Positions 7,004 through 19,393 of a DNA stretch of 64,000 bases are shown here, one piece after another (positions within the stretch are counted from its first letter, which is position 1; each line of letters begins with the position of its first letter). The notes beneath the pieces were generated by a model. It was not told the origin of the DNA. It saw nothing but the letters and a program-made list of their open reading frames with translations, and did no database searches. The stretch is from Brevundimonas naejangsanensis (GTDB lineage Bacteria; Pseudomonadota; Alphaproteobacteria; Caulobacterales; Caulobacteraceae). The stretch covers positions 483,501-547,500 of the forward strand of contig NZ_CP032707.1 of the NCBI RefSeq assembly GCF_003627995.1, written 5' to 3'. A program made the position numbers and the translations under genes.

Positions 7004-7148
7004 CCCTTCCCCCTCGATGGGGGAAGGGACGGGGATGCGGGTGTGAGCGCGACATTGCCGATAGAGCGCCTGAGGCGAGCGTCTCCTGAGACCTGCGGGA
7101 CCCGGCCTGCCTTCACCCCACCCAACCCTCCCCCATCGAGGGGGAGGG
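7004..7148. repeat. Palindromic intergenic element, family A, copy 1
   Basis: A 145-bp element with a strong hairpin at each end: 7004-7028 (CCCTTCCCCC-TCGA-TGGGGGAAGGG) and 7126-7148 (CCCTCCCCCATCGAGGGGGAGGG). The arms are extended inward by GGGGATGCGGGTG on the left and CACCCCACCC on the right, and the middle holds GCGCCTGAGGCG-AGCGTCTCC. A second complete copy of nearly the same length lies at 19247-19393 and a single arm at 44356-44378. It carries no gene, like a REP doublet or MITE. Confidence 0.8.
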
Positions 7149-7214: not shown

Positions 7215-9005
7215 ATGCGTCATCTTCTGTTCGCCGCCGGAGTGGGCCTGGCGGCCCTCGCCGGAGCCGCCGCACCCCTGCCGCTCCAGGCCGCGACGGT
7301 GCAGACCTCGCCGTCCGCCTCGGCCGCCCTCGACGCCGTCCTCAAGGACTATGAAGCCTATCTGCGCGACGCCGATCCCATCGGCTCGGGCCTGGACGGG
7401 GACCGGGCGGCCCTCTCCCGCCTGCCCGACGCCACGCGCGCGGGCGAACTGGCCCGCCGCGCGCCGCTGAACGCCCTGAAGGCGCGGCTGGACGCCATCG
7501 CCCCCGCCGCCCTCGACGAAGCGGGCCGCCTCGACCACGCCTTCGCCGGCTATCTGATCGGGCGGGAGCTGGAGCGCATCGCCCTGGATCCGTCGCGTCT
7601 GGGCTTCGATTCCGAAGGCGGCCCCGGCCAGCTTCTGGCCTATCTGGCCTCGGGGACGCGCATCGCCACCGCGGCTGACGCCGAGGCTTGGCTGTCGCGG
7701 ATGGAGGCGGCGCCCGCCTTCTACGACGCCGGCATCGCCAATACGCGCCGCGGCCTGGAGACCGGCCTGATCCAGACCCGATCGGTCGTCGACAGCGCCC
7801 TGGCCCAGGCCGAGCGCGACCTGACGCCGAGCGAGGCGGGCGACGTCCTGCTGCGCCCGTTCGACGCCCTGCCCGCCGTCATCCCCGCCGCGCAACAGGC
7901 GCAGCTTCGCGCCCGCGCCCGCGCCCTGGTCGAGGGGCCGATCACCGCCCGCCGCGCCGCCTGGCGCGACCTGCTGCGCGACGAATACGCACCGAAAGCC
8001 CCGCAGGAGCCCGGCCTGGTCCACCGCCCCGGCGGCCGCGACCTCTACGCCTTCCTGGTGCGCAGCCACACCACCACCGACCTGACGCCCGACCAGGTGC
8101 ACCAGATCGGCCTGGAGGAGGTCGCCCGCATCCGCGCCCGCATGGAGGTCGAGATGCGCGCCGCCGGCTGGACCGGCGACTTCGCCGGCTTCCTGACCTT
8201 CCTGCGCACCGACCCGCAATTCTACGCCGTCAGCCGCGAGCAGTTGCTGGAGAAGGCCTCCGAGATCGCCAAGCGCGCCGACGACCGCCTGCCGTCTCTG
8301 TTCGCCACCCTGCCGCGCCTGCCCTACGGCGTGCGTCCCGTGCCGCGCGAGATGGAGGAGACCTACACCACCGGCCGCTACAACCCCGGCTCGATGGCGA
8401 CGGGCGTGGCCGGGGGCTACATCGTCAACACCGGCAAGCTGGACCAGCGGCCGCTCTATGAACTGCCCGCCCTGACGGTGCACGAGGCCGTGCCGGGCCA
8501 CCACCTGCAGATCGCCCTGCAGCAGGAAGCCGCCGACCAGCCCTATTACCGCCGCGACGCCTCGGTCACCGCCTTCAGCGAAGGCTGGGGCCTGTATTCC
8601 GAATTCCTCGGCGAAGAGATGGGCATCTATCGCACGCCCTATGAGCGCTTCGGCCGCCTCAGCTACGAGATGTGGCGCGCCTGCCGCCTGGTGGCCGACA
8701 CCGGCCTGCACTGGCTGGGCTGGAGCGAGGAGCAGGCCCGCGCCTGCTTCCGCGACAACTCCGCCCTGTCGCCGCACAATATCGAGACCGAACTGCAGCG
8801 CTACATCGGCGACCCCGGCCAGGCCACGGCCTACAAGATCGGTGAGATCCGCCTGCGCGAAATCCGCAGCCGGGCCGAGCGCGAACTGGGCGACCGCTTC
8901 GACGTGCGCACCTTCCACGACGCCCTGCTGGTCGACGGCGCCCTGCCGCTGGCCCTGCTGGACACCCGCATGGACCGCTGGATCGCCGAGCAGAAGGCCA
9001 AGTAG
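7215..9005 (+). CDS. DUF885 family protein, probable secreted metallopeptidase
   Basis: The 596-residue protein starts with a Sec signal (LLFAAGVGLAALAGAAAPLPLQAA). The DUF885 hallmark HEAVPGHH (an HExxxGHH zinc-site variant) stands in LTVHEAVPGHHLQIALQQE, with the downstream acidic helix FSEGWGLYSEFLGEEMG supplying the likely third zinc ligand, and a C-terminal helical region (AYKIGEIRLREIRSRAERELG). These proteins resemble M32/M3-type peptidases, and exopeptidase activity in the periplasm is inferred from the fold. Length is normal. The ATG follows GGGAGGGG 5-8 bases upstream. The gene stands alone between two repeat elements. Confidence 0.88.
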   Translation: MRHLLFAAGVGLAALAGAAAPLPLQAATVQTSPSASAALDAVLKDYEAYLRDADPIGSGLDGDRAALSRLPDATRAGELARRAPLNALKARLDAIAPAALDEAGRLDHAFAGYLIGRELERIALDPSRLGFDSEGGPGQLLAYLASGTRIATAADAEAWLSRMEAAPAFYDAGIANTRRGLETGLIQTRSVVDSALAQAERDLTPSEAGDVLLRPFDALPAVIPAAQQAQLRARARALVEGPITARRAAWRDLLRDEYAPKAPQEPGLVHRPGGRDLYAFLVRSHTTTDLTPDQVHQIGLEEVARIRARMEVEMRAAGWTGDFAGFLTFLRTDPQFYAVSREQLLEKASEIAKRADDRLPSLFATLPRLPYGVRPVPREMEETYTTGRYNPGSMATGVAGGYIVNTGKLDQRPLYELPALTVHEAVPGHHLQIALQQEAADQPYYRRDASVTAFSEGWGLYSEFLGEEMGIYRTPYERFGRLSYEMWRACRLVADTGLHWLGWSEEQARACFRDNSALSPHNIETELQRYIGDPGQATAYKIGEIRLREIRSRAERELGDRFDVRTFHDALLVDGALPLALLDTRMDRWIAEQKAK

Positions 9006-9015
9006 CCGCGCCTCT

Positions 9016-9098
9016 CCTCCCCACTTCGTGGGGAGGGGGACCGCGTAGCGGTGGACGCCGCCTTGGGCGCCGCGCCACCTCCCCATTACATGGGGAGG
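9016..9098. repeat. Palindromic intergenic element, family B, copy 1
   Basis: Two hairpins, CCTCCCCAC-TTC-GTGGGGAGG (9016-9036) and CCTCCCCATTACATGGGGAGG (9078-9098), flank the motif GGGGGACCGCGTAGCGGTGG. A second copy in the opposite orientation is at 15956-16076. The right hairpin overlaps the 3' end of the mmcQ-like gene and supplies its stop codon. Confidence 0.75.
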
Positions 9099-9439
9099 AG
9101 AAGCCCCAGTTCAGCCCGCGCCTTCTTCGTCAGCTTGGCGGCGATCAGGGCGTGGGCCGACTTCAGGTGATCGGCCAGTTCCTCATCCGGCCAGTCCGCC
9201 GGATCGGCCAGATGCACCCATTTCGCCCGCGCCAGATACGGCGCCGGCGCCGCCCGCCCCGTCTCGATCAGCACCTCATAGGCGATGTCGGACACCTTGA
9301 ACGACAGCCCGCCCTCGCCGCCGACGATGGCGAACATCTTGCCGCCGACCTTGTAGGCGTCGTGATCATCCCCGAACGGATGCTCCAGCGTCACCCCCGG
9401 CATCGCCAGGCAGACCTTGCCCACCCCCGCACGATCCAT
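9086..9439 (-). CDS. MmcQ/YjbR family protein
   Basis: This 117-residue protein has the compact MmcQ/YjbR (CyaY-like) fold signature: a start near LAMPGVTLEHPFGDDHDAYKV, then GKMFAIVGGEGGLSFKVS, and a C-terminal helix LADHLKSAHALIAAKLTKKAR. The family is annotated as DNA-binding by fold; its physiological role is unknown. The last codons (Leu-Leu-Leu-Pro-Met-stop) lie inside the family B repeat hairpin, so repeat insertion has remodelled the C-terminus. It starts 4 bases downstream of the msrA stop, so the two are probably co-transcribed. Confidence 0.85.
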   Translation of the reverse strand: MDRAGVGKVCLAMPGVTLEHPFGDDHDAYKVGGKMFAIVGGEGGLSFKVSDIAYEVLIETGRAAPAPYLARAKWVHLADPADWPDEELADHLKSAHALIAAKLTKKARAELGLLLPM

Positions 9440-9443
9440 GGGT

Positions 9444-10094
9444 TCAGGCGCCGACGCCGAGGCCGATCGGGCAAACCACGCCCGTCCCGCCGATGCCGCA
9501 ATAGCCGGCCGGGTTCTTGGCCAGATAACCCTGGTGATAGTCCTCGGCGAAGTAGTAGGGGCCGGCCGGCGCGATCTCGGTCGTGATCGTCCCCCGCCCA
9601 GCCGCGCTCAGCGCCGCCTGATAGGCCTCGCGCGAGGCCTCGGCCTCTGCATGCTGCGCCTCATTCAAGGTATAGATCGCCGAGCGATACTGGGTGCCCT
9701 GGTCGTTGCCCTGGCGCATCCCCTGGGTCGGGTCGTGGTTCTCCCAGAAGGCCTTGAGCAGGTCGCCGTAGCTGATCCGGGCCGGATCGAACACCACCTG
9801 CACCACCTCCGTATGGCCGGTGCGGCCCGAGCAGACCTCTTCATAGGTCGGATTGGGCGTGATCCCGCCCGCATAGCCCGCCGAGGTCACCCAGACGCCC
9901 GGCAGCTGCCAGAACACCCGCTCGACGCCCCAGAAACAGCCCATGCCGAACACGGCCGTCTCCATGCCCGCCGGATGCGGCCCCTTCAGCGCATGACCCA
10001 GAACGAAGTGGGTCTCGTCGGTCGCCAGCGCCTCGGCCCGACCCGGCAGAGCCGTCTCGGCCGTGGGCAGTTCATCGGTCTTCTTCAACAACAT
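9444..10094 (-). CDS. msrA: Peptide-methionine (S)-S-oxide reductase MsrA
   Basis: MsrA reduces methionine-S-sulfoxide in proteins. The ATG at 10094 ([19 protein letters not shown]) is the usual start of the long MsrA form; the frame is open 48 bases further upstream but without family support. The 216-residue protein has the catalytic GCFWG motif (Cys53), [39 protein letters not shown] and a C-terminal resolving Cys region ([11 protein letters not shown]). There is no signal peptide, so it acts in the cytoplasm. The mmcQ-like gene follows after 4 bases. Confidence 0.95.
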
Positions 10095-10239
10095 GGGGCG
10101 AACTCCGGGAAAACACCTTCGCCGCCTATATGGAGGCTTCAAGGGCGCTTGCCCATGGGGGCGTCATGCTCTAATCAGCCCCTCCCGTCGGTCCGCTCCC
10201 GACGGCTCCGCCCCGGACGCATCCGGGCTCAGGTGGAAT

Positions 10240-10329
10240 GGACAGGTGGCCGAGTGGTTGAAGGCGCACGCCTGGAACGCGTGTATAGGGGCAACTCTAT
10301 CGAGGGTTCGAATCCCTCTCTGTCCGCCA
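10240..10329 (+). tRNA. tRNA-Ser (anticodon GGA)
   Basis: A 90-base class II tRNA with acceptor GGACAGG paired to TCTGTCC, a D-arm with GTGGCCGAGTGG, anticodon stem CACGC/GCGTG around loop CTGGAAC (anticodon GGA, Ser UCC/UCU), a long variable arm, T-arm GAGGGTTCGAATCCCTC and an encoded CCA end. Its 3' end faces the AT-richer island that begins immediately downstream. Confidence 0.97.
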
Positions 10330-10486
10330 CCACAGCGATCATTCTTACATCAAAACAATACGTTACGATGATCGCCAGCCATTTCGCCCCAAAACTCGCC
10401 CCAAATTCACTTCGCGTAGCGAGACGCTAGGCACTGGCCCCATTGCAAGCGTTGCAATAGCTTCACGCCATAGGGGAGAAGCAATC

Positions 10487-11263
10487 ATGGCAAAGCTAAA
10501 CCGCGCGCAAATTGGAGCAAAGGCCCGAGCTGTTCTGGAGCAGAATCCCAAAGGCATTCGCTGGATGGAACTGTTGCGGGCGGTCGAAAAGGACGAGCCT
10601 GAAACCCCACACAACTCAGTTCATGGAGGCGTACATCACTTCCTGAAAAGTGCTGACGACGTGGTGAAGGTTGCAAAGGGCACGTACGTTCTGGCGGCCT
10701 TCGCGGGAGCTATTGACGTCACTGGCGATCTCGAAACACTCTCGGCTGCCACCTCCCCCACCTCGCTGCCCGCTCACATTGAGCACCAATATTACGGCGC
10801 TTTCGCTGAGTGGCTGACGGAAGAGCTAGAAGAGGCAAACCATGCCGAGGCCGTGGGCGGAAACATTCTCAAAGGCAAATGGGGTACACCGGACGTTATC
10901 GGCGTCCTCAGGCCAAAATCATCCGACCTGATCAAATTCGAAACCCAGATCGTGTCTGCCGAAATCAAGACAGACGCGAACGCGCCAGTGGTCGCCTTCG
11001 GACAGGCCGTCGCCTACCGGCTCTTCTCCCACAAGTCCTACATGGTGATGCCGAACACGGTCTCTAAACCCGATATGGAACGGCTCGAGGCTCTAGCCAC
11101 GCTTTACGGAATCGGCCTCGTGACATTCGCTCTCGACCCTGAGAACCCCGATTTTTCGCTACGGGTACGCGCCCTGCCCTCCCAACCTGATAGATTCTAC
11201 GTCAACGAGATGGCACGTCGCGTCTTCGATCACAGCTCCAAGCTCTTCAACTCCCTGTTCTAA
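10487..11263 (+). CDS. Winged-helix plus PD-(D/E)XK nuclease-like protein
   Basis: 258 residues. The N-terminal third (about 5-70) resembles a HARE/winged-helix domain: AKARAVLEQNPKGIRWMELLRAV, HNSVHGGVHHFL, KVAKGTYVLA. The C-terminal half contains a PD-(D/E)XK-like pattern, TPDVIGV followed after about 20 residues by SAEIKTD, then a helix with QAVAYRL. Such HTH-nuclease fusions occur among restriction-like and unassigned defence-island genes; I know of no demonstrated function for this one. Codon use is clearly less G/C-rich than in the flanking chromosome, which fits horizontal transfer. GGGGAGAAG precedes the ATG. It is intact, unlike the defence remnants downstream, and the Excalibur gene follows 2 bases after its stop. 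Confidence 0.6.
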   Translation: MAKLNRAQIGAKARAVLEQNPKGIRWMELLRAVEKDEPETPHNSVHGGVHHFLKSADDVVKVAKGTYVLAAFAGAIDVTGDLETLSAATSPTSLPAHIEHQYYGAFAEWLTEELEEANHAEAVGGNILKGKWGTPDVIGVLRPKSSDLIKFETQIVSAEIKTDANAPVVAFGQAVAYRLFSHKSYMVMPNTVSKPDMERLEALATLYGIGLVTFALDPENPDFSLRVRALPSQPDRFYVNEMARRVFDHSSKLFNSLF

Positions 11264-11265
11264 GA

Positions 11266-11550
11266 ATGCAGCGGCACTTACGGCGAAATCTTTCCGTCGA
11301 AGCGACCCTCACGATTGCGCTTTGCATCGGCCTATTCGGCGCAGTGGTTCTATGGCCGTCAAAACCAGTCATGGAGCGCCCGTTCACCGCTGCGGAGCAA
11401 GTGAGACACACCCTCGCCAAGCCAAACTGCTCGGCTGCCAGGCTAATGCGTCTAGCGCCCGCCCGTAGAGGCGAACCCGGCTATCACCCTGAGCACGATA
11501 GAGACGGCGACGGCTGGGCCTGCGAACCTACCCCTCGTCGGAGAGGGTGA
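11266..11550 (+). CDS. Excalibur calcium-binding domain membrane-anchored protein
   Basis: 94 residues: a basic N-terminus, one membrane helix or uncleaved signal (about 13-30, TIALCIGLFGAVVLW), then a C-terminal Excalibur motif with paired cysteines (NCSAARLM ... HDRDGDGWACEP), whose DxDxDG loop resembles a calcium-binding EF-hand loop. The family often accompanies extracellular nucleases; no nuclease domain is present here. The ATG is 2 bases after the preceding stop, so the two genes are probably translated together. Base composition fits the island. Confidence 0.75.
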   Translation: MQRHLRRNLSVEATLTIALCIGLFGAVVLWPSKPVMERPFTAAEQVRHTLAKPNCSAARLMRLAPARRGEPGYHPEHDRDGDGWACEPTPRRRG

Positions 11551-11671
11551 AAGGCCAAAATGAAAAGCCGTCCCGAAGGCACCCAAAACCAACGTTGCGC
11601 AGCGGGACTATTGCTCCAACGCAGTGAATTTCGGTTGCCAAGCCTAAAGCCGCGCGACATATTACAGCCAA

Positions 11672-11792
11672 GCTTGCGGATAGATTTTGCTATCATGCTT
11701 CGTGATAGTTGAAAGCAATGTTGCAGACATTGCCCATACGCGACAATTCGCCCCTCAATGTAACCTTTGGTTGCCAACGAGTATCCGCAAGC
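11672..11792 (+). ncRNA. Candidate retron msr-msd RNA
   Basis: A perfect 11-base inverted repeat, GCTTGCGGATA (11672-11682) and TATCCGCAAGC (11782-11792), encloses about 100 bases and ends 22 bases upstream of a reverse-transcriptase start. This is the a1/a2 arrangement that defines retron non-coding RNAs. Inside are two hairpins: CTATCA/TGATAG (11690-11708) and GCAATGT/ACATTGC (11715-11733). A long msd hairpin is not obvious, perhaps because of decay, and the branching guanosine cannot be assigned. The inverted repeat and hairpins are seen directly; retron identity rests on position and the adjoining gene. Confidence 0.5.
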
Positions 11793-11814
11793 GTTCACTT
11801 AATTTTGAGTTATT

Positions 11815-12060
11815 ATGTCTCGACTAGACAATCTCAAGAAATGCAAATCTCTAACTGATTTAGCACTGGTTCTGGGCATATAACCGAAGATACTGGCTCA
11901 TAGAATTTATGGAATTCCGGATAGCCAAAAATACACTACATTTCAGATACCGAAGAAAAACGGCGGCACAAGAACCATTCACGCCCCCGTTGAACGGCGC
12001 AAGAAAATTGATTTCAGCGACTTCAAAATACTTCTGGACCGAATTGTCGCAGTACAGCCA
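11815..12060 (+). pseudogene. Retron-type reverse transcriptase, N-terminal remnant
   Basis: Translation from the ATG at 11815 gives MSRLDNLKKCKSLTDLALVLGI, then an in-frame TAA at 11881-11883, then residues continuing in the same frame: PKILAHRIYGIP, YTTFQIPKKNGGTRTIHAP, DFSDFKILLDRIVAVQ. The IPKK-GG-TRTI-AP core is the diagnostic N-terminal region of retron/group II-type reverse transcriptases (family knowledge). Similarity ends near 12060; the palm domain with the YxDD motif is gone. The gene is therefore broken twice: by a nonsense codon and by loss of about three quarters of its length. It meets the nucleotidyltransferase remnant tail to tail. Confidence 0.75.
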
Positions 12061-12100
12061 AGGGGGCTGGCCCATATAGGCGCCCCACTCGGCACCGGCG

Positions 12101-12469
12101 GCGCCGCCCCTCTCCCAAGGGTTTCACCATGTTCTGGGCCTTGCGGTACGCCTCGATCTCGGTTCCCAGCAGAATCTTCAGGCTCTTCTGCGAAACGGTG
12201 TGCTTTGCGATCGCCTTGAACTCGCAAACGGCATCGACGTCATATTCTTCTTCCAGGCTCAACGGCTTGATCACAGTCCCGAGGCCAAAGGACCCCTGGA
12301 TGTAGACCGCCGGTCCATAGGCTCCGATCGTGGAGGCTGGCCGGTTGAGCCAGCGCCCGAGCGAGAGGTAGCTGTCGTTCGCCTGTTCGTAGCGTCCTTC
12401 GCTGATGTCCAGTTCGTCGACCAGCGCCTCGATGAAGCGCTTCGATGATGTGCTCGCGATCGTAACCAA
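12101..12469 (-). pseudogene. CBASS-type (SMODS) nucleotidyltransferase, N-terminal remnant
   Basis: From a TTG at 12469 with a strong GGGGGA ribosome-binding site, the product has the CD-NTase order: KRFIEALVDELDIS, RYEQANDSYLSLGRWLNRP, the GS motif QGSFGLGT, and the catalytic acidic pair in EEYDVDAVCEF (DxD), then KSLKILLGTEIEAYRKAQNMVKPLGEGRR. Family members continue with a Cys-Trp core and a FHMDI-type third acidic motif; here the match stops at GEGRR (about 12101) and the frame runs on into unrelated G/C-rich sequence to 12023. The third catalytic carboxylate and the OAS-like C-terminal domain are missing, so it cannot be a working cyclase. The frame is open upstream to 12643 without family similarity. 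Confidence 0.72.
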
Positions 12470-12793
12470 GGCTCCCCCCAAGATTTGTTTCCCGTTTGTT
12501 CCTAATGTGCAGCTGGATTTGAGACGAGCCGTATCCTTAGGGAGACGTTCGAGGATGGCTCGGGAAAAGCCCTTAGAGGGATAGGCAACTGGCTTTGCTT
12601 GCTGCTCTCGCGGCGATGCCAAAGCTGACATCGCCCAACTCACCGCAATCCGAGCCCCAAAGCGAACCTTGCGAATCGCCGTTCTGAGTCAGAACCCGCC
12701 GAGACGAAACTAGAGGCTGAAGTTGCGATCAATTCTCATGTTGAGCCACTTTTAACTGGTTTTGAGCCAGTTCTAAGTGGTCCCGACAAGGAA
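12470..12793. other. 324-bp stretch without a supported gene, right end of the island
   Basis: The stretch between the nucleotidyltransferase remnant and tRNA-Arg holds no gene I can support. Part of it is an open extension of the remnant's frame that resembles no known family. Base composition is mixed and AT-richer than the chromosome. Its right end contains the imperfect palindrome at 12746-12780. No integrase gene or direct repeat of either tRNA 3' end is visible. Confidence 0.6.
12746..12780. repeat. Imperfect palindrome next to tRNA-Arg 3' end
   Basis: CCACTTTTAACTGG and CCAGTTCTAAGTGG form 14-base arms with two mismatches around a 7-base loop. It lies 14 bases beyond the 3' end of tRNA-Arg on the island side, so it may be a processing or termination hairpin for the tRNA transcript or a remnant of an integration site. 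No T-run follows on either strand. Confidence 0.45.
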
Positions 12794-12870
12794 TGGCGAC
12801 CCCGCCAGGACTCCAACCTGGGACCTCGGCTTTAGGAAAGCCTTGCTCTATGCAGCTGAGCTACGGGGCC
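12794..12870 (-). tRNA. tRNA-Arg (anticodon CCT)
   Basis: A 77-base tRNA on the minus strand: acceptor GGCCCCG paired with CGGGGTC, D-arm TAGCTCAGCTGCATAGAGCA, anticodon loop TTCCTAA (anticodon CCT, Arg AGG), T-arm CCAGGTTGGAGTCCTGG and encoded CCA. Its 3' end points toward lower coordinates, into the AT-richer island, opposite to tRNA-Ser. Confidence 0.95.
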
Positions 12871-13155
12871 ACGTGTGTCTGCCTAAAGGAGGTTGAGGTC
12901 GCAGGGAAGCCCCTGTGAAAACTGAACGCGCGACGGCGACCGCTCGATGGTTCGGCCTTGTGGTTAAGCTGCGTTAAGCTACTATCCCTAGTATGGAACA
13001 AAGCCTGAATCGGCGAGCGTCGCTGATTCGGTCATGATTCGTTTCGCCCGTGTTCCAGGGCGCGGTAAGGTTCCGCTTACCATTCCCCGCATCGTCGCTC
13101 CGCCCCCTCGGCGCCGCTTGTGCAAGCGGGCGCGGTTCGCCACCTTGGGCCGGTC

Positions 13156-15678
13156 ATGAGCGACCGTTCCGCAGGCATGGCCCCCTCGCGCGTCACGGCG
13201 ATCCTGGGCCCCACCAACACCGGCAAGACCCATCTGGCGGTCGAGCGCATGCTGGGCCACGCCTCGGGCATGATCGGCCTGCCGCTGCGCCTGCTGGCGC
13301 GCGAGATCTATGAGCGGATCGTCAAGCGGCGCGGGGCGGCCTCGGTCGCCCTGATCACCGGCGAGGAGAAGATCGTCCCGCCGCGCCCGGCCTTCTTCGT
13401 CTGCACGGTCGAGGCCATGCCGCTGGAGCGGTCGGTCGACTTCCTGGCGGTGGACGAGATCCAGCTGGTCGCCGATCCCGAGCGCGGCCACGTCTTCACC
13501 CAGAGGCTGCTGCATGCGCGCGGCCGGTTCGAGACCATGTTCCTGGGCGCCGGGACGATGGCGCCGCTGATGCGGTCGCTGGTCCCCGATGCGGAGATCG
13601 TCTCGCGCGAGCGGCTGTCGACGCTGAGCTACGCCGGGTCGAAGAAGCTGACCCGCCTGCCCCGCCGCAGCGCCGTGGTCGCCTTCTCGACCGAGCAGGT
13701 TTACGCCATCGCCGAACTGCTGCGTCGTCAGAGGGGCGGGGCGGCGGTGGTCATGGGCAGCCTCAGCCCCCGCACCCGCAACGCCCAGGTCGAGCTGTTC
13801 CAGTCGGGCGAGGTCGACTTCCTGGTCGCCACCGACGCCATCGGCATGGGGCTGAACATGGACGTGGACCATGTGGCCTTCGCGGGCCTGCGCAAGTTCG
13901 ACGGGCGGCGCACCCGCTGGCTGCACGCCGCCGAGATCGGCCAGATCGCCGGGCGCGCGGGGCGGCACCTGCGCGACGGGACCTTCGGCGTCACCGGCGA
14001 GGCGGAAGAGCTGGACGAGGACCTGGTCGAACAGGTGGTCGAGCATCGCTTCGATCCGGTTGAGGCGGCCGAATGGCGCAGCGGGCGGCTGGATTTCGAT
14101 GCGCTGCCCGACCTGCTGCGCTCGCTTACGGTGACGCCGGATCGGCATGGGCTGCGGCTGACGGCGCAGGCGCTGGACGAGACCCTGCTGCGGCGCTTTG
14201 CGGTCGATGAGGACGTGAAGAAGATCGCCCGCTCGCGCGGCGCCCTGATGCGTCTGTGGGAGGCGTGCCAGTTGCCGGACTTCCAGAAGACGACGCTGGA
14301 CGAGCACGCCCGTCTGTCGAAGGAGATCTTCACAGCCCTGACCAGTCGGCGCGGGCGGTTGACCGAGGACTGGGTGGCGCCGCGCTTCAACGACCTGGAC
14401 CGCGACGACGGCCAGATCGACCAGTTGTCGGCGCGGCTGTCGGGGGTGCGGACCCTGTCCTACATCGCCAACCGGCCCGACTGGATGGCGGGCGCGCAGG
14501 AGTGGCGCGACCGGACCAAGGCGCTCGAGGAGCGGCTCAGCGACGTGCTGCACGAACGGCTGACGGCGCGCTTCGTCGACCGGCGCACGGCGGCCCTGAT
14601 GCGGGCGCTGCATGTGCGCTCCGACGTGCTGGCGGGGGTGGCCAAGGACGGCGAGGTCACGGTCGAGGGCGAGGTGGTCGGCCATCTGGACGGGGTGCGC
14701 TTCACCGTCGACGCGGGCGGCTCGGCCCTGGCCGATCGGGCGCTGCGGCAAGCGGCGACGCGCGCAGTGGGGCCGGAGGTGGCGCGGCGGCTGGGGCGGC
14801 TGACGGCCGACGGCGACGACGCCTTCGCCGTCACGCCCGACGGCGGGGTGCTGTGGAGCGGCGCCCTGACCGGCCGCATCGTCAACGAAGACCCCTTCTC
14901 GCCGCGCGTGCGGCTGCTGGGCGAACTGGGGCCGGCGCCTGCGCGCGAGCGGGCCGAGCGGCGCATGGAGGCCTGGCTGGCGGGCGAGGCCGGACGCGCG
15001 CTGAAGCCGCTGAAGCGGCTGCGCCACGCGATCGAGAGCGGCGCCCTGACCGGCCTGCCGCGCGGCCTGGCTTTCCGCCTGGTCGAGGCGGGCGGCCTGA
15101 TTCCCCGGCGCGAGGTCGAGCGTGACCTAGCGGCCCTGAGCCAGCATGAGCGGCGCACGCTGAAGACCTTCGCCATCCGGGTCGGCGCCCATTCGGTCTG
15201 GCTGCCGGGCGTGATGAAGCCGCGCGCCGCCGCACTGGCCCAGGCCTTCCTGCCGCGCGAGGCGACGAACGGCCTGGCCGGCGAGGGCCTGCTGCCCCTG
15301 CCGGAGCCGGCGCCCCCAGCGCGCGCCCTGTCCGCCTTCGGCCGACGCGCGGTCGACCGCTGGACAGCGCCGGTCGAAGCGCTGGAGGCCTTCGCCGAGG
15401 CCCAACGCGCGGCAGGCAAGGCGCCGCCGTCGGATCAGGCGCTGGCCGGCCTCGGCTGGACGGCGGAGCAGGCGAAGGCGATCCAGGCCGCCCTGCGCAC
15501 GCCGCGCGCCGAACGGGCGCTGCATCCCGGCAAGCCGACGCCGCCGCCCAAGGACTCGCCCTTCGCCGCCCTGGCGCAGTTGACGCAGCCGCCGCGCCCC
15601 GCCCCCTCCGTCAAGCCCAAGGCGGCGCGCAGGCCCCGCCGCCGCCCGAGGCGGCCAGCCGCCAAAACCGCTGAATGA
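13156..15678 (+). CDS. SUV3-like ATP-dependent RNA helicase
   Basis: An 840-residue superfamily 2 helicase of the SUV3 group, which in mitochondria partners a degradosome nuclease; alphaproteobacteria keep a homologue of uncertain role in RNA turnover. Motif I: GPTNTGKTH (18-26). Motif II: DEIQ (100-103), replacing the commoner DExH. Motifs V and VI: ATDAIGMGLNMDVDHVAF and QIAGRAGRH. The C-terminus is a Lys/Arg/Pro-rich basic tail (KPKAARRPRRRPRRP), longer than in many homologues and probably RNA-binding. The ATG at 13156 is preferred to an in-frame codon 36 bases upstream because family members begin shortly before the Walker A motif. Its stop overlaps the next start (ATGA). Confidence 0.88.
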   Translation: MSDRSAGMAPSRVTAILGPTNTGKTHLAVERMLGHASGMIGLPLRLLAREIYERIVKRRGAASVALITGEEKIVPPRPAFFVCTVEAMPLERSVDFLAVDEIQLVADPERGHVFTQRLLHARGRFETMFLGAGTMAPLMRSLVPDAEIVSRERLSTLSYAGSKKLTRLPRRSAVVAFSTEQVYAIAELLRRQRGGAAVVMGSLSPRTRNAQVELFQSGEVDFLVATDAIGMGLNMDVDHVAFAGLRKFDGRRTRWLHAAEIGQIAGRAGRHLRDGTFGVTGEAEELDEDLVEQVVEHRFDPVEAAEWRSGRLDFDALPDLLRSLTVTPDRHGLRLTAQALDETLLRRFAVDEDVKKIARSRGALMRLWEACQLPDFQKTTLDEHARLSKEIFTALTSRRGRLTEDWVAPRFNDLDRDDGQIDQLSARLSGVRTLSYIANRPDWMAGAQEWRDRTKALEERLSDVLHERLTARFVDRRTAALMRALHVRSDVLAGVAKDGEVTVEGEVVGHLDGVRFTVDAGGSALADRALRQAATRAVGPEVARRLGRLTADGDDAFAVTPDGGVLWSGALTGRIVNEDPFSPRVRLLGELGPAPARERAERRMEAWLAGEAGRALKPLKRLRHAIESGALTGLPRGLAFRLVEAGGLIPRREVERDLAALSQHERRTLKTFAIRVGAHSVWLPGVMKPRAAALAQAFLPREATNGLAGEGLLPLPEPAPPARALSAFGRRAVDRWTAPVEALEAFAEAQRAAGKAPPSDQALAGLGWTAEQAKAIQAALRTPRAERALHPGKPTPPPKDSPFAALAQLTQPPRPAPSVKPKAARRPRRRPRRPAAKTAE

Positions 15679-19246: not shown

Positions 19247-19393
19247 CCCTTCCCCCTCGATGGGGAAAGGGCGGGGATGGGGGTGCCCGCGAGGCATTAA
19301 ATGCAAAGGCGCGTGAGGCGCCGGCGTCTCCGAGCTTGGCGATCCAGCTCCTGCCTCCACCCCCACCCAACCCTCCCCCATCGAGGGGGAGGG
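19247..19393. repeat. Palindromic intergenic element, family A, copy 2
   Basis: A 147-bp copy of the element at 7004-7148: left hairpin CCCTTCCCC-TCGA-TGGGGAAAGGG (19247-19271) and right hairpin CCCTCCCCCATCGAGGGGGAGGG (19371-19393). Shared interior includes a GCGC-TGAGGCG block followed by GCGTCTCC. Same orientation as copy 1. It fills most of the 325-base gap between rpmB and the aminopeptidase gene. Confidence 0.8.

Follow-up and report, generated by a model that had tools for sequence, protein, structure and literature searches.

The closest known system to the locus described here is Retron-Eco2 (Ec67), a type I-C retron, represented by NF038237 in NCBIfam and PDLC02963-02968 in PADLOC. 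In PMC12405507 the Retron-Eco2 layout is given as an inverted repeat, a branching G directly after it (rG15), a short single strand, and a stem-loop; the RT half of the protein makes msDNA, and the Toprim RNase stays harmless until a phage trigger. The locus lies in a 64,000-nt stretch of Brevundimonas naejangsanensis (GCF_003627995.1, NZ_CP032707.1, 483,501-547,500, forward strand), which as a whole we call the window. It agrees with that layout, and its presumed branching guanosine at 11683 sits, by alignment, at the same place as rG15. With Retron-Eco2 and type I-C it shares the a1-AGAUU-stem-loop msr, the ncRNA just 5' of the RT start, the N-terminal RT sequence, and a C-terminal Toprim tail in one frame; unlike them it is without the RT catalytic core, the Toprim core and the last codons, and has a stop at codon 23. 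The intact I-C retrons of Brevundimonas (L001/L096, L002/L097, L003) are of the same genus and ncRNA layout, and their frames are open whereas that of the window is not. A further likeness is to the CBASS of two relatives, L091 (G058) and L092 (G103), with which the window shares the N-terminal part of the cyclase, although it keeps only the 5' third and has no E1-E2 or effector gene beside it.

Sequence comparison makes it very probable that the locus is a retron of type I-C (Retron-Eco2/Ec67-like), now dead, with an in-frame deletion of its core, a nonsense codon at position 23, and a scar that it has in common with a CBASS cyclase gene. That it is a relic of a known retron type is well supported; new are the specific damage and the presence of a second broken system next to it. 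Among open-licence papers we found no report of this relic, and the portions of PMC7285500 and PMC6053426 available to us do not deal with relic ncRNAs. Coordinates are collected in Table 1.

Table 1. Features of the locus and its surroundings, in window positions
Feature	Position	Strand	Basis or remark
tRNA-Ser(GGA)	10240..10329	+	left edge of variable stretch
msr-msd ncRNA, structurally intact	11671..11793	+	covariance model R1 and fold
a1 arm of retron ncRNA	11672..11682	+	11/11 complementary to a2
presumed branching (priming) guanosine	11683	+	directly after a1; alignment only
msr stem-loop 1, 9 pairs, CTT loop	11689..11709	+	fold; equals covarying second helix of model
second hairpin, GCAATGTT...GACATTGC	11715..11733	+	fold
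a2 arm	11782..11792	+	inverted repeat; aligned with relatives
N-terminal ~60 codons of RT, TAA at codon 23 (11881-11883)	11815..11994	+	homology
~20 codons of Toprim end, in frame of RT	11995..12054	+	C-terminal profile, blastp, full-length profile
scar separating the two gene stumps, ~46 bases, G+C-rich	12055..12100	.	no clear homology in comparisons
5' stump of CBASS CD-NTase cyclase gene, ~123 of ~400 codons	12101..12469	-	PADLOC, BLASTP
tRNA-Arg(CCT)	12794..12870	-	right edge of variable stretch

The retron ncRNA

A first-pass annotation of the DNA had called the locus a decayed retron, pointing to a perfect 11-nt inverted repeat around two hairpins and, 22 bases after it, a frame with an RT core and an in-frame TAA at codon 23. 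Each of these is there, the ATG standing at 11815 and the frame carrying IPKKNGGTRTIHAP. The 121 nt from 11672 to 11792 fold at -46.8 kcal/mol (z = -6.2), which none of 200 shuffles equals. The repeat by itself is weak evidence for a retron, because 29 of 2000 simulated stretches, each 500 nt long, contain a perfect 11-nt inverted repeat, and perfect 11-mer pairs of such spacing number 41 in the window, overlapping ones counted.

What settles the ncRNA is the match to R1, a covariance model that we built from 15 aligned relative ncRNAs, with the window left out and two helices assigned by hand from folds. Up to E = 10, R1 has a single match in the window, which covers 11671-11793 and model positions 1-133 with 61.6 bits (E = 3.7e-11) and is also its only match at E ≤ 0.1 in the window's own genome. 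The A-G-A at the branching position is invariant in 15 relatives. The second hairpin aligns with an AATGT..TTGC segment of the relatives, and the GAG at 11779-11781 together with the first a2 base gives a GAGT that is conserved among them. A search with Rfam of 10200-13100 at E ≤ 1 gives no retron family.

Covariation of the inverted repeat in relatives with an RT downstream had been set beforehand as a test of the retron reading. With the window added to make 16 sequences, the a1/a2 helix has 12 pairs, of which 9 are changed on both sides, and 100% of its cells are paired. Over the whole structure 95.3% of the cells pair and both-side changes occur in 15 of 20 pairs. The covariation score is 0.603 versus a shuffled mean of 0.253, with none of 500 shuffles as high, and shifting the partner columns abolishes the signal. 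The number of further pair types does not exceed the shuffles (30 versus 27.2, reached by 61 of 500), and stem 1 lacks its outermost pair in 11 of the 16 sequences. Fitting 25 sequences to R1 gives a like result, with 93.8% of the cells paired and both-side changes in 15 pairs, in an alignment that is biased towards the structure.

Of the full-length I-C loci, 17 were examined and 15 have the same ncRNA layout, including those on the L001 and L002 contigs; a differing one is seen in two Streptococcus loci (L106, L107). R1 matched 25 of the 30 sources scanned, the unmatched ones being L106, L107, L112, L113 and L114. It finds the ncRNA in all 5 I-C loci taken from plasmid records, at 37.1-66.5 bits; 3 alphaproteobacterial records and 1 from E. 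coli among these 5 carry the name 'retron Ec67 family'. By R1 the ncRNA of the window scores 61.6 bits versus 55.9 for the annotated E. coli 'retron Ec67 family' record.

The RT fragment and the Toprim tail

The RT gene lies directly downstream of the ncRNA on the same strand, and it is broken. From 11815 the frame reads MSRLDNLKKCKSLTDLALVLGI*PKILAHRIYGIPDSQKYTTFQIPKKNGGTRTIHAPVERRKKIDFSDFKILLDRIVAVQP. A retron RT profile match after the stop was the other test fixed in advance, and for the residues past the TAA the best among the 24 PADLOC retron RT models listed is RT-Toprim_I-C (E = 2.9e-13, in two stretches), with retron_Ec67_fus as the top NCBIfam model (E = 2.6e-12, 46 bits). The 46 bits are far below the whole-protein cut-off of 450 for retron_Ec67_fus, as expected because only a fragment is present. 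Identity of the RT fragment to type I-C proteins is 36-58% over all 27 compared, and the surviving fragment is 39-48% identical to the intact Brevundimonas I-C retrons (L001/L096, L002/L097, L003). Pfam has no match in the RT fragment, and RVT_1 matches nowhere in the whole genome. The ncRNA covariance model picks out this dead retron clearly, in a genome without any match to the general RT model, although the RT fragment is detected by the specific type I-C profile.

The first-pass annotation had RT similarity fading near 12060, before the palm. The palm (YADD) is indeed absent, the frame jumping from residue ~60-65 to the C-terminus; the recognizable RT sequence ends sooner than had been stated, at ~11994-12009, and what comes after it, up to ~12054, matches the very end of the fused Toprim effector; the junction of the internal deletion lies near 11989-12009.

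How this tail is to be read bears on the kind of damage. The retron might have been merely truncated at ~12060 by joining to the CBASS gene, with the residues after 60 being diverged RT and the likeness to Toprim a product of chance. We consider this unlikely, short as the tail is. When the fragment is left unsplit, 9 of 17 first pairwise BLAST alignments do continue to residue 72-77 in the RT register, and an N-terminal profile (110 residues), given the whole fragment and nothing else, extends to residue 76. Since the pairwise alignments run on in this way, we depend on profiles to decide. A C-terminal profile made from the last 60 residues of 18 relatives, and run with filters off on six frames of the window, has as its sole match at E ≤ 10 the sequence RRKKIDFSDFKILLDRIVAV in the frame of the remnant (E = 6.7e-5). 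A full-length profile of 27 relatives, unconstrained, divides the fragment into two domains, residues 1-65 falling on model positions 1-65 and residues 61-80 on model positions 538-557 of 565. Scored by itself, the tail has 25.3 bits with the C-terminal profile versus -1.4 with the N-terminal RT profile.

We also split the fragment at residue 60 and compared the two parts separately with 27 full-length proteins. The N part aligns to the N-terminus of all 27. The 24-residue C part at E ≤ 1 matches 20 of the 27, with 19 at the C-terminal end and 1 (L110) elsewhere, and the 7 proteins without a match include the nearest Brevundimonas proteins, L096 and L097. Its best blastp score is 29.5 bits versus a maximum of 22.7 in 500 shuffles; at a looser E of 100, 2 of 500 shuffles match at least 10 proteins near the C-terminus. 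By these comparisons the gene is very probably gutted, not merely cut off within the RT, although the Toprim tail has only ~20 residues. Depending on the relative, ~475-530 codons are missing in frame, and with them both the RT catalytic core with its palm and the Toprim core.

It had also been claimed that no effector gene is next to the retron. No separate one is seen, and the reason is that in type I-C the RT gene itself encodes the effector in its C-terminal half; what the claim overlooked is the piece of it that survives here. The Toprim effector domain fused to the RT is not whole, having only ~20 recognizable residues near its end.

The cyclase stump, the scar and the site

About 46 bases beyond the retron remnant, on the other strand, is a broken CBASS cyclase gene that the first-pass annotation missed. 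A minus-strand open frame (12023-12643) matches the PADLOC Cyclase model with E = 5.1e-37 and Pfam DncV-like with E = 1.7e-5. Cyclase homology runs from 12445 down to 12101, with a TTG start inferred at 12467-12469, and DNA similarity to the intact cyclase ends, by eye, at 12101. Over 115 residues the stump shares 58% identity with residues 9-123 of the intact 397-residue cyclase of L091 (G058). A whole CD-NTase cyclase is not present; only the N-terminal third is found, the remainder being absent at the locus. An alignment by MAFFT had raised the candidate that the end of the cyclase frame is the cyclase C-terminus, which we rejected as the main BLASTP alignment ends at residue 181.

In the intact relatives an E1-E2 gene lies beside the cyclase (L091/G058, L092/G103), an arrangement that we take to be type II-like, and in G058 the cyclase is followed by the E1-E2 gene and a 2TM-SAVED effector. 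Among the four frames scanned at 10.4-12.7 kb with PADLOC, Pfam and NCBIfam, none is an E1-E2 (Cap2) or effector gene next to the stump. A cyclase relative occurs in 6 of 131 genus genomes, the window's own included. A six-frame translation of the scar, set against the six CBASS proteins of L091/L092 and the fetched loci, gave a good match in the known cyclase part only.

A 10-nt direct repeat, TACAGCCAAG, is present at 11663-11672, the start of the ncRNA, and at 12053-12062, the end of the retron remnant. It may be chance or the trace of an insertion or deletion, and a target-site duplication was considered; by a rough, uncomputed estimate a 10-nt repeat within 921 bases is near the chance level.

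The tRNA-Ser and tRNA-Arg genes are 2.5 kb apart in the window, and the retron relic lies between the two. We fetched 20 genus loci, all upstream of the gene that follows tRNA-Arg in the window. In 14 of them tRNA-Arg adjoins the same downstream gene and the DNA inside differs, similarity to the window stopping at tRNA-Arg or at most ~115 bases from the tRNA; in L080 (from G032) similarity resumes at the tRNA-Ser block, and L072 and L073 each have one stray match farther off. In the other 6, tRNA-Arg is apart from the downstream gene or was not seen. G032 has its tRNA-Ser and tRNA-Arg 12 kb apart with other contents between them, including 11 ORFs of at least 120 aa. Ten of these were run against Pfam, which gave no defence gene and assigned families to 2, pilus-usher-like and FMN reductase. 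The two flanks are far apart in the single-contig G036, and several near relatives have theirs at distant places or on separate contigs. Because the contents differ at the 12 kb spacing of G032, the flanks are far apart in G036, and the inner DNA of the genus loci differs, we call the tRNA-Ser/tRNA-Arg interval, as judged from these comparisons, a variable, rearranging site. No attachment-site repeat of the tRNA-Arg end was found in the whole window or in 8800-13200.

In its whole state the locus would have made an a1-msr-msd-a2 ncRNA and one RT-Toprim protein, whose RT half reverse-transcribed the ncRNA to msDNA and whose Toprim half, to judge from Eco2, would have been an RNase harmless until a phage trigger. 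The simplest history would be that a defence cluster, in which retron and CBASS operon were convergent, was acquired between two tRNA genes and that deletions eroding it killed both. As the retron is on the plus strand and CBASS on the minus strand, the systems would have faced each other, and a deletion of the middle would explain both losses; the last RT-Toprim codons would have gone at the scar in common with the oppositely directed cyclase gene. We found no ancestor in which a retron faces CBASS, so we infer the order and number of the deletions, and since the ~46 bases of the scar are unexplained, there may have been several events or an insertion. The damage is separable into the nonsense codon, the in-frame core deletion and the common scar, and the locus exemplifies the loss of two neighbouring anti-phage systems.

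Just left of the relic there is a 258-residue open frame (10487-11263, plus strand), whose PDVIGV...AEIKTD, by eye, resembles what we take to be a PD-(D/E)xK nuclease motif. Pfam, NCBIfam and PADLOC assign it to no family convincingly, and it has no relative in the fetched loci at E ≤ 0.05. After it, 11266-11550 (plus strand) encodes a small protein that ends in an Excalibur calcium-binding domain (PF05901, E = 3.2e-12). Elsewhere in the window, identical inverted-repeat arms (TCCCCCTCGATGG...) occur near 7008-7145 and 19251-19390, 12 kb apart, which suggests a small dispersed repeat element.

Relatives and the frequency of decay

The I-C model at E ≤ 0.001 matches 25 of 131 genus genomes, the window's own included. 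Only 3 of the genus matches (L001, L002, L003) span nearly the full model, the rest being partial. L001/L096, L002/L097 and L003 have open RT-Toprim proteins of 580-588 residues, and in L001, L002 and L003 an ncRNA of the same layout is just 5' of the RT. A DNA search of 101 genomes with 11600-12640 finds the retron part in the window's own genome only; 3 other genomes match elsewhere in the query, one of them in the cyclase, and one plasmid record matches in the cyclase part only. Scans with R1 find the ncRNA in 4 of 131 genomes of the genus, 5 of 385 of the class, and 6 of 398 of the phylum, samples that overlap and each contain the window's own genome, which in sum makes 12 distinct genomes. 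The class and phylum scans scored only 8 candidates per genome, strictly filtered, and therefore miss weak or eroded ncRNAs.

These searches bear on whether the ncRNA persists as still functional alone, for instance as a regulatory RNA or with an RT in trans. Its perfectly paired a1/a2 and full-length model match, next to a ruined protein gene, would fit such a role, yet the genome has no RVT_1 match, the same relic is found in no other genome by the 101-genome DNA search or by R1 in the 131 genus genomes, and recent decay accounts for the same facts, so that we hold this to be highly unlikely. Very improbable too is the stronger form, in which the ncRNA has a use that needs no reverse transcription and was selectively kept by a host that discarded two self-harming defences at one deletion scar. 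On the reading as a dead retron, the ncRNA may still be transcribed, and its own enzyme could no longer turn it into msDNA. There is next to no chance that the remnant still yields a small protein, in spite of the 111 open codons after the TAA, for the TAA parts the start codon from the remainder, no ORF of at least 40 aa from ATG, GTG or TTG is listed in frame after it, and both catalytic cores are absent.

Among the 12 ncRNA genomes the RT-Toprim gene is open in 9, interrupted in 2 and, in the window, gutted; the three other ncRNA-bearing genomes of the genus all have an open RT gene. Both interrupted genes have a well-scoring ncRNA. The gene of G547 (L182/L188) is stopped at codon 67 and changes frame after ~residue 436, and that of G410 (L181/L189) changes frame at ~141; sequencing error may lie behind these interruptions. 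Decay of type I-C retrons thus does not appear to be unique to the window. The locus is a tidy example of defence-gene decay and reveals no new system or mechanism. Scoring ncRNA-bearing loci for dead enzymes would give the rate at which self-harming defences vanish.

Two plasmid records, relatives that were each matched in several pieces, are possibly further broken I-C retrons. The record L198 has 2 features in all, so missing annotation there says little. This plasmid of Caballeronia sp. SBC2 is matched in 2 pieces and has an ncRNA of 66.5 bits, and H26, an E. coli plasmid record, is matched in 4 pieces.
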